Source: Syntrophomonadaceae bacterium (lineage in GTDB: Bacteria > Bacillota > Ch66 > Ch109). From it: a stretch of DNA of 50,811 nt. Below are positions 3,164 through 44,676 of the stretch, piece by piece; positions within the stretch are counted from its first letter, which is position 1, and each line of letters opens with the position of its first letter. Both the position numbers and the translations under genes were made by a program. The notes under the pieces were generated by a model. That model saw only the letters and a program-made list of their open reading frames with translations, had not been told where the DNA came from and made no database searches. The stretch is from contig JAAYQE010000116.1 in the NCBI GenBank assembly GCA_012519455.1, positions 1 to 50,811 on the forward strand, given 5' to 3'.

Positions 3164-4199
3164 GCGTGATCATCATTATATCATCATTGCGGTCCATTTT
3201 AGCATGGCTTGGCCATTTAGACAACAGGTTAGTTTTTAAATTTGCCAATTTAGCGATAACTTCCGGCAAAAAACTACCTTGGGGCAATCTTAAATTCGGT
3301 GCAATTTCCGCCAGGGGCACCAGGACAAAATCTCTAACCTCCAAGTAAGGGTGGGGTACGATTAAATCTGGTTCTTCAATAATTTGATCGCCAAAAAGCA
3401 ATAAATCAAGATCTACCGTTCTTGGTCCCCAGGAAATTTCTCGTTTTCGTCCCAATTGATTTTCAATGGCTTTTAGGGTTTGATACAGTTTTGGTGCCGA
3501 ATATATGGTATCTACCCGGGCAACGGCATTAATAAAAAGCCCCTGCGCTTGATATCCAACCGGTTTAGTCTCATAAAAAGAAGATACCTTTACGACCCGC
3601 AAACCGGGATGAGCGGCCAATAAACCTAGCGCCTGCCAAAGATACGCTTCCCGGTCCCCTAAATTCGATCCCAGGCCTATATAAGCCGGTGTCCATTCTG
3701 ATAACTCTTCTTTTTCCCTGGCATTAGAGGCTGCCATACTTATGCCTTTTTCCGCTTCCGGGTCAGAAAAATTCGTCGGTACCTCAACTGTTTCTCGCCG
3801 GCGGTATATTTCTACCCCCGCCCAGTTCAAAGGCCCGGGAAGGGAAACTTCTGGTTTCCGCACCCGGATGGTTACACCGGTTACCGAATATTTATTTAGC
3901 AAACTACTCGCTAGGCGTTCGGCTAAGGTTTCCAATAACCGGTACTGCTGTTCTTCGACGATTTCTCGAATATCTTGGTAGACCTGCCGGTAATCAATCG
4001 TCTCTTGGATATCGTCGGTCCGTATCGCTTTCTCTGGAGGGCAAAAATATAGTTCCACATCAACCTCAAAAGACTGCCCCTGAGATCTTTCCTCCGGCAG
4101 CAGGCCGTGGTAAGCAAAAAAACGCATTCCCTGCAAACAAATGCAATCTTCTAGTCTTAAACTTTTAGGAGTAAGTGGATCCTTAAAAACTTCTATAAT
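3150..4199 (-). CDS. folBK: Dihydroneopterin aldolase / HPPK fusion (FolB-FolK), probable ATT start
   Basis: A bifunctional folate enzyme. The FolB half (GMRFFAYHGLLPEE, ETIDYRQVY, LLETLAERLA) cleaves dihydroneopterin. The FolK half (IGLGSNLGDR, GPRTVDLDLLLFG, VPHPYLEVRDFVLVPLAEI) pyrophosphorylates the product. A low-complexity linker of about 35 residues joins them. The first usable standard start, TTG at 4136, would cut off the first beta strand (DCICLQGM) and has no ribosome site. The reading frame stays open upstream to an ATT at 4199, seven bases after GAGGTG, so ATT is my preferred start; it adds 21 residues to the frame that begins at TTG. folP ends 19 bases upstream, so translation is probably coupled. 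Confidence 0.9.
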   Translation of the reverse strand: MIEVFKDPLTPKSLRLEDCICLQGMRFFAYHGLLPEERSQGQSFEVDVELYFCPPEKAIRTDDIQETIDYRQVYQDIREIVEEQQYRLLETLAERLASSLLNKYSVTGVTIRVRKPEVSLPGPLNWAGVEIYRRRETVEVPTNFSDPEAEKGISMAASNAREKEELSEWTPAYIGLGSNLGDREAYLWQALGLLAAHPGLRVVKVSSFYETKPVGYQAQGLFINAVARVDTIYSAPKLYQTLKAIENQLGRKREISWGPRTVDLDLLLFGDQIIEEPDLIVPHPYLEVRDFVLVPLAEIAPNLRLPQGSFLPEVIAKLANLKTNLLSKWPSHAKMDRNDDIMMITQDFK

Positions 4200-24601: not shown

Positions 24602-25861
24602 TTATCCCGCTTGGGAGTTAACCCGATTATTAAACGGATCTGGAAAATACTGTAACATAGTTAAAATCGGGGTAGGAGCAGTATGCCCTAGCCCACAAAA
24701 GGAAGCCTGGGTCATTATCCACATCAAACGTTCTAGCGTTTCTAAGTCCTGCCTACTGCCTTGGCCTCGACTTATTTTTTCTAGTAACCGATGCAGCTGA
24801 AAAGTCCCTTCCCGGCACGGTGTACACTTACCACAAGATTCATGTTTAAAAAAGCTAGCAATGGTTACAGCCAGATCGACCAGATCCCGGGTTTCATCCA
24901 CAACCAGTACGGCCCCGGAACCCAAGGTGCCTCCAACAGCGGCCATAGAATCTAGATCGGCCGGGGTATCTAGTAAACTTTCGGGTAAAAAGGCCCCTGA
25001 AGTACCGCCCACCTGAACAGCTTGCAGCTTTTTCCCTCCAGCTACGCCGCCACCAAAATCGTAGACTAGCTCTCGGAGCGTTACATCGGTTGGTACTTCA
25101 CAGAAACCTTTTCGGGCCACGTCCCCGGTTAAAGTGAAAATCTTAGTTCCTGGATAACGAGAAGCACCGATTTGCTGGTAAGCGGTAGCTCCGTGTTCGA
25201 TAATCCAGGGTACCGCGGCCAAGGTCTCTACGTTATTTACAACCGTGGGTTTTCCCCATAGACCAGCTACCCCGGGGAAAGGGGGCTTGGAGCGGGGTTC
25301 GCCTCGTTTACCTTCCAGTGATTCGATTAGGGCGGTTTCTTCGCCGCAGATATAGGCGCCGGCCCCCATGCGTACTTCAACATCAAAACTAAAGTTGCTC
25401 TCGAACCGGTTGGTCCCTAGTAATCCCTTTTCTCGGGCTTGTTCTATGGCCCGCTTTAAGCGTTTGACAATATAGGGGTATTCTCCCCGACAGTAGATGT
25501 AACCCTTACTTGCGCCTACGGCGTAGCCGGCTATGGCCATCCCCTCCAGGACTAAATGAGGGTCTCCCTCCATAATTAGCCGGTCTTTAAAGGTGCCGGG
25601 CTCGCCTTCGTCGGCATTGCAAATGATATACTTTTGCTCCGCCGGGGTTTGTAGGGTAAACCCCCATTTGATCCCGGCCTTAAATCCGGCTCCTCCTCGT
25701 CCCCGCAGGCCAGCATCTTTTACCGCTTGCACAATGGCGGCGGGTGGCTGACTCAGGGCTTTTTGGAGTGATTGATAGCCTCCATGTTCCAGGTAATCCT
25801 CTATTTGGTCCGGATCGATTAAGCCGTAGTGCTTAAGGCTGATCCGCTTTTCTTCCCGCAT
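24602..25861 (-). CDS. hydB: NADH-linked [FeFe] hydrogenase, flavin subunit HydB (NuoF-like, short form)
   Basis: NAD(H)- and FMN-binding subunit. Seen are the NuoF signatures GLRGRGGAGFKAGIKW, ICNADEGEPGTFKDR, GAGAYICGEETALIES and the cluster motif SCGKCTPCREGT with a distal Cys (FCGLG). At 419 residues it is only the 51-kDa-like core. The N-terminal thioredoxin-like domain and C-terminal double [4Fe-4S] domain known from bifurcating HydB (about 600 residues) are both missing. That points to a non-bifurcating NADH-dependent enzyme as described for Syntrophomonas. It starts at ATG 25861, 16 bases after hydC. Confidence 0.93.
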   Translation of the reverse strand: MREEKRISLKHYGLIDPDQIEDYLEHGGYQSLQKALSQPPAAIVQAVKDAGLRGRGGAGFKAGIKWGFTLQTPAEQKYIICNADEGEPGTFKDRLIMEGDPHLVLEGMAIAGYAVGASKGYIYCRGEYPYIVKRLKRAIEQAREKGLLGTNRFESNFSFDVEVRMGAGAYICGEETALIESLEGKRGEPRSKPPFPGVAGLWGKPTVVNNVETLAAVPWIIEHGATAYQQIGASRYPGTKIFTLTGDVARKGFCEVPTDVTLRELVYDFGGGVAGGKKLQAVQVGGTSGAFLPESLLDTPADLDSMAAVGGTLGSGAVLVVDETRDLVDLAVTIASFFKHESCGKCTPCREGTFQLHRLLEKISRGQGSRQDLETLERLMWIMTQASFCGLGHTAPTPILTMLQYFPDPFNNRVNSQAG

Positions 25862-43517: not shown

Positions 43518-43904
43518 TTATTTTGCTTGGTTAACTTTCATTAACACTTGTTCCCCCGGTTTAATTAAGCCCAATTCCTCCCGAGCCATCCGCTCAACGG
43601 CGGCTTCGGTTCCCAGCCAATTTATTTTTTCCTGTAACACCTGATTATTAGCCTGTAACTCGGCTTTTCGATTTTGTAGTTCCGCCCCTCGCTGTTTTAA
43701 GGCATCAATTTTTTGATATTGTGGCCACCAACAATTAAATAACAAAAAACCCACACCCATAACTACTATCCCCCACTTAGTTTTGCGGGATAGACTTCCT
43801 GATCGCCCCCTACCCTCCCGTAACCGCCGGCGTCGAGCTCGATTACGCCGCTTTGAACCGGACCCCAGATAATCTATTTCGGCGCTAAATCTATCCCTAC
43901 TCAA
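43518..43904 (-). CDS. divIC: Septum formation initiator family protein (DivIC/FtsB-like)
   Basis: A small bitopic division protein. A very basic cytoplasmic N-terminus (RRNRARRRRLREGRGR) is followed by one membrane helix (WGIVVMGVGFLLFNCWW) and an extracellular coiled coil (KIDALKQRGAELQNRKAELQ and onward). It belongs to the DivIC/FtsL interaction network. The frame opens at TTG 43928, but GGAGG lies nine bases before the TTG at 43904, which also overlaps the stop of the preceding HTH gene in TTGAGTAG. That coupling favours 43904. Confidence 0.88.
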   Translation of the reverse strand: MSRDRFSAEIDYLGSGSKRRNRARRRRLREGRGRSGSLSRKTKWGIVVMGVGFLLFNCWWPQYQKIDALKQRGAELQNRKAELQANNQVLQEKINWLGTEAAVERMAREELGLIKPGEQVLMKVNQAK

Positions 43905-44130
43905 TTTCTCCTTCCTCCCGTTCCCCAAAAATACCTAAACTCACGCCTGGAAGTACGATAACTACTTCATAGCCTTTACTTCGAGCCCGGTTAAATAAGG
44001 TCGCAACGGTACTAGGGCTTATTCCCAAAATCCGGGCTACTTCTTCATTAGAACGGCCCATCTCTTTCATCGCTACTACTTGTCTCTCCCGAAAACTGAG
44101 CCTTTCTACTCCCCGAATCTCTATTTTCAC
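43897..44130 (-). CDS. Small helix-turn-helix protein (sigma-70 region 4-like)
   Basis: A 77-residue protein whose first 55 residues form a LuxR/sigma region-4-type HTH (LSFRERQVVAMKEMGRSNEE, then ARILGISPSTVATLFNRARS). The acidic tail overlaps divIC. No other domain is present, so it is a stand-alone DNA-binding protein of unknown target. It begins with GTG at 44130. Its upstream region contains three DnaA boxes, suggesting control tied to replication. I recall similar short ORFs between yabQ and divIC in some Clostridia. Confidence 0.75.
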   Translation of the reverse strand: MKIEIRGVERLSFRERQVVAMKEMGRSNEEVARILGISPSTVATLFNRARSKGYEVVIVLPGVSLGIFGEREEGEIE

Positions 44131-44169
44131 TCCGTCTACCGTCCTTTAATTTAGGAAGATCACTCCGGT

Positions 44170-44201
44170 TTATCCACATCTTATCCACAAAATGTGGATA
44201 A
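44170..44201. promoter_or_regulatory. Cluster of three perfect DnaA boxes
   Basis: TTATCCACA at 44170-44178 and 44181-44189 on the plus strand, and TGTGGATAA at 44193-44201, the same box inverted. Starts are 11 and 12 bp apart. A degenerate copy (TTATGTACA) follows. They lie in the 168-base gap between yabQ and the small HTH gene, just downstream of a possible promoter (TAGACA, 16 bp, TACATA on the minus strand, 44237-44210). Confidence 0.8.
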
Positions 44202-44298
44202 TTTATGTACACCATTTCTACAATCTGTCTACATGACTAAATCTATTCTACAATTAATCATAAATTCCTGCCAGCTCTCCCTTTCTCTTTTTCCGGAC

Positions 44299-44676
44299 CT
44301 ATTTAACCCGGCGAAAAAAACGGTTTCCCCAAGTAAACGGTCGGGCCAAGGTTTTAACCAGATGACCCAGAAACCGAAAAAATCGATTAGCCAGACGCAA
44401 TAAGGTCTGGCTAAAACAACGCACATGAATAATTAGGCCAAAAATTAAACCCAAAATAATATAGGCTCGAACTTCTCCCCAGTTTCCCAGTAACAAGCTA
44501 TAAAAAACTACAGCGGTCATTAATAACCAGAAGAGCAGATCACTAATACGGGTTACCATTATAGGGGGGCGTAATAGACGATTGCTGATCCGATAAAAAT
44601 CAAAAAGAATACCGATTAAAATGCCCAGGGCAATGGCCAGTCCGAACCCCATAAACTGTTGACTGAGCGGAATCAT
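44299..44676 (-). CDS. yabQ: Spore cortex protein YabQ
   Basis: A 125-residue membrane protein with three to four hydrophobic segments (FGLAIALGILIGILFDFYR, LLFWLLMTAVVFYSLLLGNW, RAYIILGLIFGLIIH) and a basic C-terminus. It matches YabQ, needed for cortex formation in B. subtilis. ATG at 44676, eight bases after yabP. The remaining context (yabP, divIC, spoVT) supports the name. Confidence 0.9.
   Translation of the reverse strand: MIPLSQQFMGFGLAIALGILIGILFDFYRISNRLLRPPIMVTRISDLLFWLLMTAVVFYSLLLGNWGEVRAYIILGLIFGLIIHVRCFSQTLLRLANRFFRFLGHLVKTLARPFTWGNRFFRRVK

Follow-up and report, generated by a model that had tools for sequence, protein, structure and literature searches.

A conserved cluster of putative DnaA boxes in the predicted leader of an HTH–divIC gene pair of anaerobic spore-forming Bacillota

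Between the spore cortex gene yabQ and a pair of genes encoding a 77-residue helix-turn-helix (HTH) protein and the septum-formation protein DivIC, the genome of a Syntrophomonadaceae bacterium carries three perfect DnaA boxes, which very probably constitute a real DnaA site conserved among related Bacillota. A sigma-H-like promoter stands upstream of the boxes, and it is fairly probable that DnaA represses sigma-H-driven transcription of HTH–divIC from within the leader. Binding of DnaA at the boxes is well supported by the sequence; its repressive effect, the co-transcription of the two genes and the part played by a neighbouring array of TGTA units are what we infer from it. Positions given below are those of the window, the whole stretch of 50,811 nucleotides that was analysed.

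The box cluster and its surroundings

An earlier note had described two direct and one inverted perfect box at 44170–44201, phased at about one helical turn and lying in the gap between yabQ and the HTH–divIC genes, and both the motif scan and the gene coordinates bear this out (Table 1). Read along the coding (minus) strand, box 1 (44201–44193) is followed after 3 bp by box 2 (44189–44181), and this after 2 bp by box 3 (44178–44170), with start-to-start distances of 12 and 11 bp, or about one turn of the helix. A regulatory DnaA-box cluster is marked by several near-perfect TTATNCACA boxes occurring together above chance, and by the spacing of 2 or 3 bp that DnaA favours; both are seen here, the gaps being 3 and 2 bp. 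The exact sequence TTATCCACA is present four times in the window, where 0.27 occurrences are expected, and none of 100 shuffles reached four. Across the home assembly (G000, 2.37 Mb in 277 contigs) there are 30 exact boxes and seven matches to the reversed motif, and the yabQ–HTH gap is the only site with a tandem pair of boxes separated by 2 bp, with up to two mismatches allowed. The fourth perfect box of the window stands alone at 24715–24723.

Table 1. Features of the yabQ–HTH–divIC region, in the order in which they are read on the minus strand
Feature	Position	Strand	Basis
yabQ, spore cortex protein, upstream neighbour	44299–44676	-	PF09578, E 1.1e-20; TIGR02893 over cut-off
Sigma-H-like promoter: GCAGGAATT (44271–44263) and TAGAATA (44250–44244)	44244–44271	-	consensus match, conserved gap
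Three TGTA units in 11-bp steps, TGT at 44233, 44222 and 44211	44202–44233	-	register with boxes
DnaA box 1, TTATCCACA on coding strand	44193–44201	-	motif scan
DnaA box 2, TGTGGATAA on coding strand	44181–44189	+	3 bp after box 1
DnaA box 3, TGTGGATAA on coding strand	44170–44178	+	2 bp after box 2
Putative ribosome binding site AAAGGACGG	44139–44147	-	read from sequence
Gene of 77-aa HTH protein, GTG start	43897–44130	-	PF08281 and PF00196 over cut-off
divIC, septum formation	43518–43928	-	PF04977, E 4e-14; overlaps HTH gene

The order of genes on the minus strand is yabP, yabQ, the HTH gene, divIC and a gene for an S1-domain protein, and the HTH gene and divIC are probably co-transcribed. 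A terminator-like hairpin with a T run (44387–44414, minus strand) is located within the yabQ frame, towards its 3' end, and might separate yabQ from the HTH operon.

Conservation in related genomes

Conservation of the cluster was assessed over 98 loci, which remained of 108 after the removal of eight near-identical loci and two that were short or rich in N; L029, a partial match, was removed before the count. Boxes were scored in the 150 bp ahead of the HTH gene, with at most one mismatch to TTRTCCACA. One or more boxes were present in 82 of the 98 loci, two or more in 72, and three or more in 56, compared with 226, 13 and 0 of 2734 control windows taken from the same loci, and with 13, 1 and 0 of the 98 loci for the reversed motif. 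The reversed motif and the control windows were the controls relied on; a set of permuted motifs included permutations that restore the motif, its maximum equalling the observed count. Comparison of the same gap in related genomes, which had been put forward as a check, comes out in favour of the cluster, and such a conserved place next to a promoter is a further mark of a DnaA-box cluster. A similar module is present in the corresponding leader of Moorella thermoacetica. Adjacent boxes mostly adopt one of two geometries, inverted at 12 bp (+-, 53 cases) or direct at 11 bp (--, 40 cases), and the three-box module is carried by 50 of the 118 genomes that have the HTH gene.

The surroundings of the HTH gene are also maintained: of the 92 loci that could be assessed, 88 have DivIC or the S1 gene next in line. 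On the upstream side YabQ was recognised in 61 of 95 loci, probably a lower bound because YabQ is short and diverged.

Fewer than two boxes were found within 150 bp in 26 of the 98 loci, 19 of which keep only TGTA units, so that DnaA control would not be universal. Some of these box-poor loci have an insertion between the array and the start codon, and in L064 an intact array is found further upstream; L064 and L065 (Desulfofundulus and Desulfotruncus) both carry an insertion-like stretch between the promoter and array and the HTH start codon. A different form of leader is seen before the HTH gene of Bacillota SKS3.bin89 (L103, 2860–2962), where an 11-bp tandem array of 9.4 copies leads from two perfect DnaA boxes into CTTGGGGTAAC and CTTGGGATAAG units, as an expanded and decaying DnaA-box-like array.

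The module at other sites and DnaA as its ligand

Among 299 genomes of the phylum, the three-box module (at most one mismatch) has 64 matches in 63 genomes, and the reversed control has none. These divide into 53 at the yabQ–(HTH)–divIC junction, seven at dnaA/dnaN, and four elsewhere. Matches less than 250 bp upstream of an HTH gene number 51, in 50 genomes; 33 of them run in the same direction as the gene and 18 in the opposite one, so that either orientation occurs. The other 13 comprise six at dnaA (G296, G225, G008, G184, G270 and, by its rnpA neighbour, G168), one before dnaN (G055), one before divIC (G037), one at the yabQ junction of a contig that breaks off there (G140), and four elsewhere (G311, G279, G316 and G019). 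In G316 and G019 (L248 and L249), which belong to one family, the module lies away from both dnaA and the HTH gene, and in one of the two it stands beside a HAD-phosphatase-like frame; DnaA may thus have another site in these genomes.

The strict inverted pair TTRTCCACA-N3-TGTGGAYAA was found at 28 sites in 26 of the 299 genomes, with none for the reversed control. Eleven of the sites are before the HTH gene and 12 at dnaA, ten of the latter having DnaA encoded alongside (tblastn) and two more lying at dnaA or its rnpA side. The remainder are distributed upstream of a ywlC-type TsaC gene (two), upstream of rlmH, which we take to be yydA in B. subtilis (one), downstream of tsaD, presumably the B. 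subtilis gcp (one), and near a pdaB-type gene (one). DnaA clusters of B. subtilis, as listed by Smith and Grossman (2015, PMC4447404), lie at dnaA, dnaA/dnaN, ywcI/vpr, gcp/ydiF, trmE/jag, ywlC, yqeG/sda and yydA, and the strongest DnaA regions include those upstream of dnaA, ywlC and yydA and downstream of gcp. The module, or the inverted pair that is its core, is thus present at known DnaA sites, at dnaA, ywlC, rlmH and tsaD, and together with the conservation ahead of the HTH gene this common module supports DnaA as the ligand. A chance origin of the cluster is rejected by the counts in the window and assembly, by the conservation over 98 loci, and by the module scan of 299 genomes.

A genome scan for other DnaA clusters, another of the checks suggested beforehand, returned box pairs upstream of dnaA, where the home genome has TTATCCACA-N3-TGTGTATAA, and downstream of tsaD. 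Just downstream of tsaD (gcp), a DnaA-cluster place in B. subtilis, two adjacent perfect boxes occupy positions 3179–3196 of contig C15 of the home assembly (L212). The dnaA gene of this assembly is split across two contig ends (C185, 15245–15931; C12, 10263–10976).

Promoter, leader and TGTA array

The sigma-H consensus is given as RNAGGAWWW and RNNGAATWW (PMC8510167, accessible part), and a match to the two elements with their spacer is found at 44271–44244, upstream of the boxes. The boxes had been described as lying at the promoter, and this requires amendment: they are not at the core promoter, the sigma-H-like site, which is the best promoter candidate, placing them in the leader, at roughly +37 to +69 should transcription start near 44238. 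Of the 98 loci, 58 contain AGGA-N17-GAA and 19 contain AGGA-N18-GAA, with one to ten for other gaps; at N17 and N18 respectively, reversed sequences gave five and three, and the other strand zero and one. The distance from GAA to box 1 is 11–74 bp (57 loci with both elements identified), and box 1 begins 32–104 bp ahead of the start codon (73 loci). Their place in a leader that would be transcribed argues for repression by a block over classical activation.

Upstream of box 1 the TGT step of the boxes continues in repeats that are mostly TGTA, with TGT at -11 in 46 of 73 loci, at -22 in 23 and at -33 in seven, and in zero to three at other offsets. TGTA followed by TGT after 11 bp occurs in 38 of the 72 loci with at least two boxes, in 19 of the 26 with fewer, and in 12 of 2734 control windows. 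At the dnaA modules TGT at -11 is absent (0/11, from 11 of the 12 dnaA inverted-pair sites), compared with nine of 11 HTH modules, which ties the array to the HTH promoter instead of making it a mere part of the DnaA module. It is probably the HTH protein that binds these units. The earlier note mentions neither the sigma-H-like promoter, the leader position and the TGTA array nor the likely link of the site to sporulation. A strict double TGTANTWA pattern has four occurrences in three of the 299 genomes, three of them (two genomes) at the HTH promoter and the fourth in a genome that lacks the HTH gene. The home genome has no second copy of the exact array, and a wider TGTA regulon was rejected there, a single other match with one mismatch being found against five for the reversed control.

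One genome separates the components. In G037 the HTH gene has no match at E<=1e-12 in the phylum scan (another search gave a weak match at 7.6e-4), and the sigma-H-like promoter and the boxes stand directly before divIC, without TGTA units; G107 and G142, from the same family, have the HTH gene, the TGTA units and the boxes. A search for yabQ in 32 genomes without the HTH gene gave no match in seven, and 24 of the 25 yabQ loci so obtained had no such box cluster.

Proposed mechanism and alternatives

In the mechanism that we favour, the three boxes would together be bound by DnaA within the leader of an HTH–divIC operon driven by sigma-H, and DnaA assembling on boxes 3 and 2 bp apart would block promoter escape or elongation. 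HTH–divIC would then be expressed under active sigma-H while little free DnaA (probably ATP-DnaA) is available, as might be the case once initiation is past or once replication has ceased at the onset of sporulation. The promoter-proximal TGTA units would be bound by the HTH protein in autoregulation, on the same helix face as the DnaA boxes. The earlier note had offered a DnaA-titration site or a switch linking replication initiation to division gene expression; DnaA as ligand is supported, and a switch fits better than mere titration because the module keeps its place behind the sigma-H-like promoter and G037 keeps both before divIC. A more specific form of such control, a composite operator in a single register, where a sigma-H-made GerE-like HTH protein on the TGTA units and DnaA on the boxes give a joint response to sporulation and replication, is put forward tentatively.

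The sign of the regulation may be the reverse, with DnaA, or Spo0A at the TGTA units, activating the operon. TGTAGAA resembles what we take to be the Spo0A box, but most of the TGTA units (TGTACTAAA, TGTAGTTAA) do not appear to fit its consensus, and the predicted promoter precedes the boxes. Such activation is considered unlikely. Several genes of B. subtilis, including ywlC, appear to be repressed by DnaA, whereas sda is activated by it (PMC4447404, accessible part), so the sign at HTH–divIC could differ.

It is improbable that the HTH protein has the entire array, the boxes as well as the TGTA units, for its operator and that the likeness to DnaA boxes is incidental. Boxes and TGTA units do share one 11-bp TGT register, and the TGTA array accompanies the HTH gene and persists in those 19 box-poor loci; against this, the same module or inverted pair is found at dnaA, ywlC, rlmH and tsaD, the module is also present in genomes without the HTH gene (G168, G296 and G184), and G037 has kept its boxes without that gene. 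Pure HTH autoregulation of the boxes is disfavoured by G037 and by the four other sites.

A slim probability is likewise accorded to an origin-proximal sink for titration of DnaA, with only a minor effect on the HTH gene. In its favour, the boxes are clustered, and several single-contig records place the locus about 53–280 kb from their start, which would be near the origin if, as we assume, the records begin there. There are, however, three boxes only, their fixed place between the sigma-H-like promoter and the start codon is needless for a sink, and about 0.77 Mb separate the HTH gene from dnaA in Candidatus Formimonas. An RNA hairpin formed by the inverted boxes as a terminator or attenuator is most improbable, since the weak stem listed by the terminator scan (44181–44201) is on the plus strand, pairing is not kept across relatives (only 11 of 73 loci retain the full nine pairs), and the columns vary independently and track the DnaA consensus.

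Relation to known DnaA-controlled sites

The kind of control proposed is a known one, but both the locus and its composite arrangement are new. It resembles the DnaA clusters of B. subtilis in its intergenic TTATCCACA-type boxes, several of theirs being at promoters that DnaA appears to repress, and the inverted pair recurs in relatives at the counterparts of those clusters (dnaA, ywlC, rlmH/yydA and tsaD/gcp). Unlike them, it lies at another locus, in a predicted leader behind a sigma-H-like promoter, and is fused in register with a TGTA array. In the accessible part of a study in E. coli (Stringer 2024, PMC11317965), DnaA is found to prefer tandem box pairs 2 or 3 bp apart; the spacing is the same, but that double box is modelled as tandem, whereas boxes 1 and 2 of the present site form an inverted pair (3 bp) and boxes 2 and 3 a direct one (2 bp). 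The DnaA–Sda connection of B. subtilis, as treated in the available part of a review (PMC8203912), similarly has DnaA boxes at a small gene linked to sporulation; DnaA activates Sda, however, and Sda is an inhibitor of the phosphorelay, whereas the present site precedes the gene of an HTH protein, behind a sigma-H-like promoter and with divIC in the presumed operon.

Neither divIC nor yabQ is mentioned in the accessible main text of the B. subtilis binding study (PMC4447404), nor divIC in the accessible part of the review of the transcriptional role of DnaA (PMC8203912). B. subtilis divIC–yabR has been reported under sigma-X (PMC1925097, accessible part), and a preprint describes a conserved divIC neighbourhood downstream of shfA, which on our own reading is yabQ, in sporulating Bacillota, with no mention of DnaA in its available text (PMC13232292). 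No literature on DnaA boxes at divIC or at yabQ–HTH–divIC was found, which is weak evidence as most subscription journals were outside coverage.

Were the composite operator true, it would be a second DnaA route, beside sda, coupling replication to sporulation and septation, and one unreported in the literature searched. The crosstalk of replication initiation with septation and sporulation is little known outside Bacillus, and the locus would extend the short list of DnaA-controlled promoters by one that is tied to sigma-H and divIC. Its conservation in many anaerobic spore-formers suggests that replication helps to time the reading of HTH–divIC. The element is compact and conserved in Moorella, Thermincola, Syntrophomonas and others, and offers in G037 a natural experiment, and in the HTH protein a conserved regulator family.

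The HTH protein and its family

The HTH protein exceeds the cut-offs of both Sigma70_r4_2 (PF08281) and GerE (PF00196), and so belongs to the sigma region 4/GerE fold class. Its predicted structure (pLDDT 87) consists of a strand, three helices and a second strand, for which the best Foldseek matches are the HTH domains of RhlR, NarL and GerE (probability 1.00, E about 0.1), with none at E<=0.001, so that model and fold comparison yield the fold class and nothing further. In sequence, with PF00196 over its cut-off, and in fold, it has an HTH domain of the NarL/LuxR/GerE type; none of the 25 NCBIfam families listed for it reached its cut-off. A role in defence was rejected, the weak CARF matches falling on the HTH part only.

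Relatives with E below 1e-20 are present in 28 of 61 genomes, that of the window included, and at E<=1e-12 they are found in 118 of the 299 phylum genomes. A scan of named genomes yielded 386 relatives, 80 of which were kept, including those of Syntrophomonas, Thermosyntropha, Moorella, Thermincola, Pelotomaculum and Desulfofundulus. The protein is like other GerE/NarL-type proteins in its HTH core, and like GerE in length, but differs from them in its flanking strands and acidic tail.
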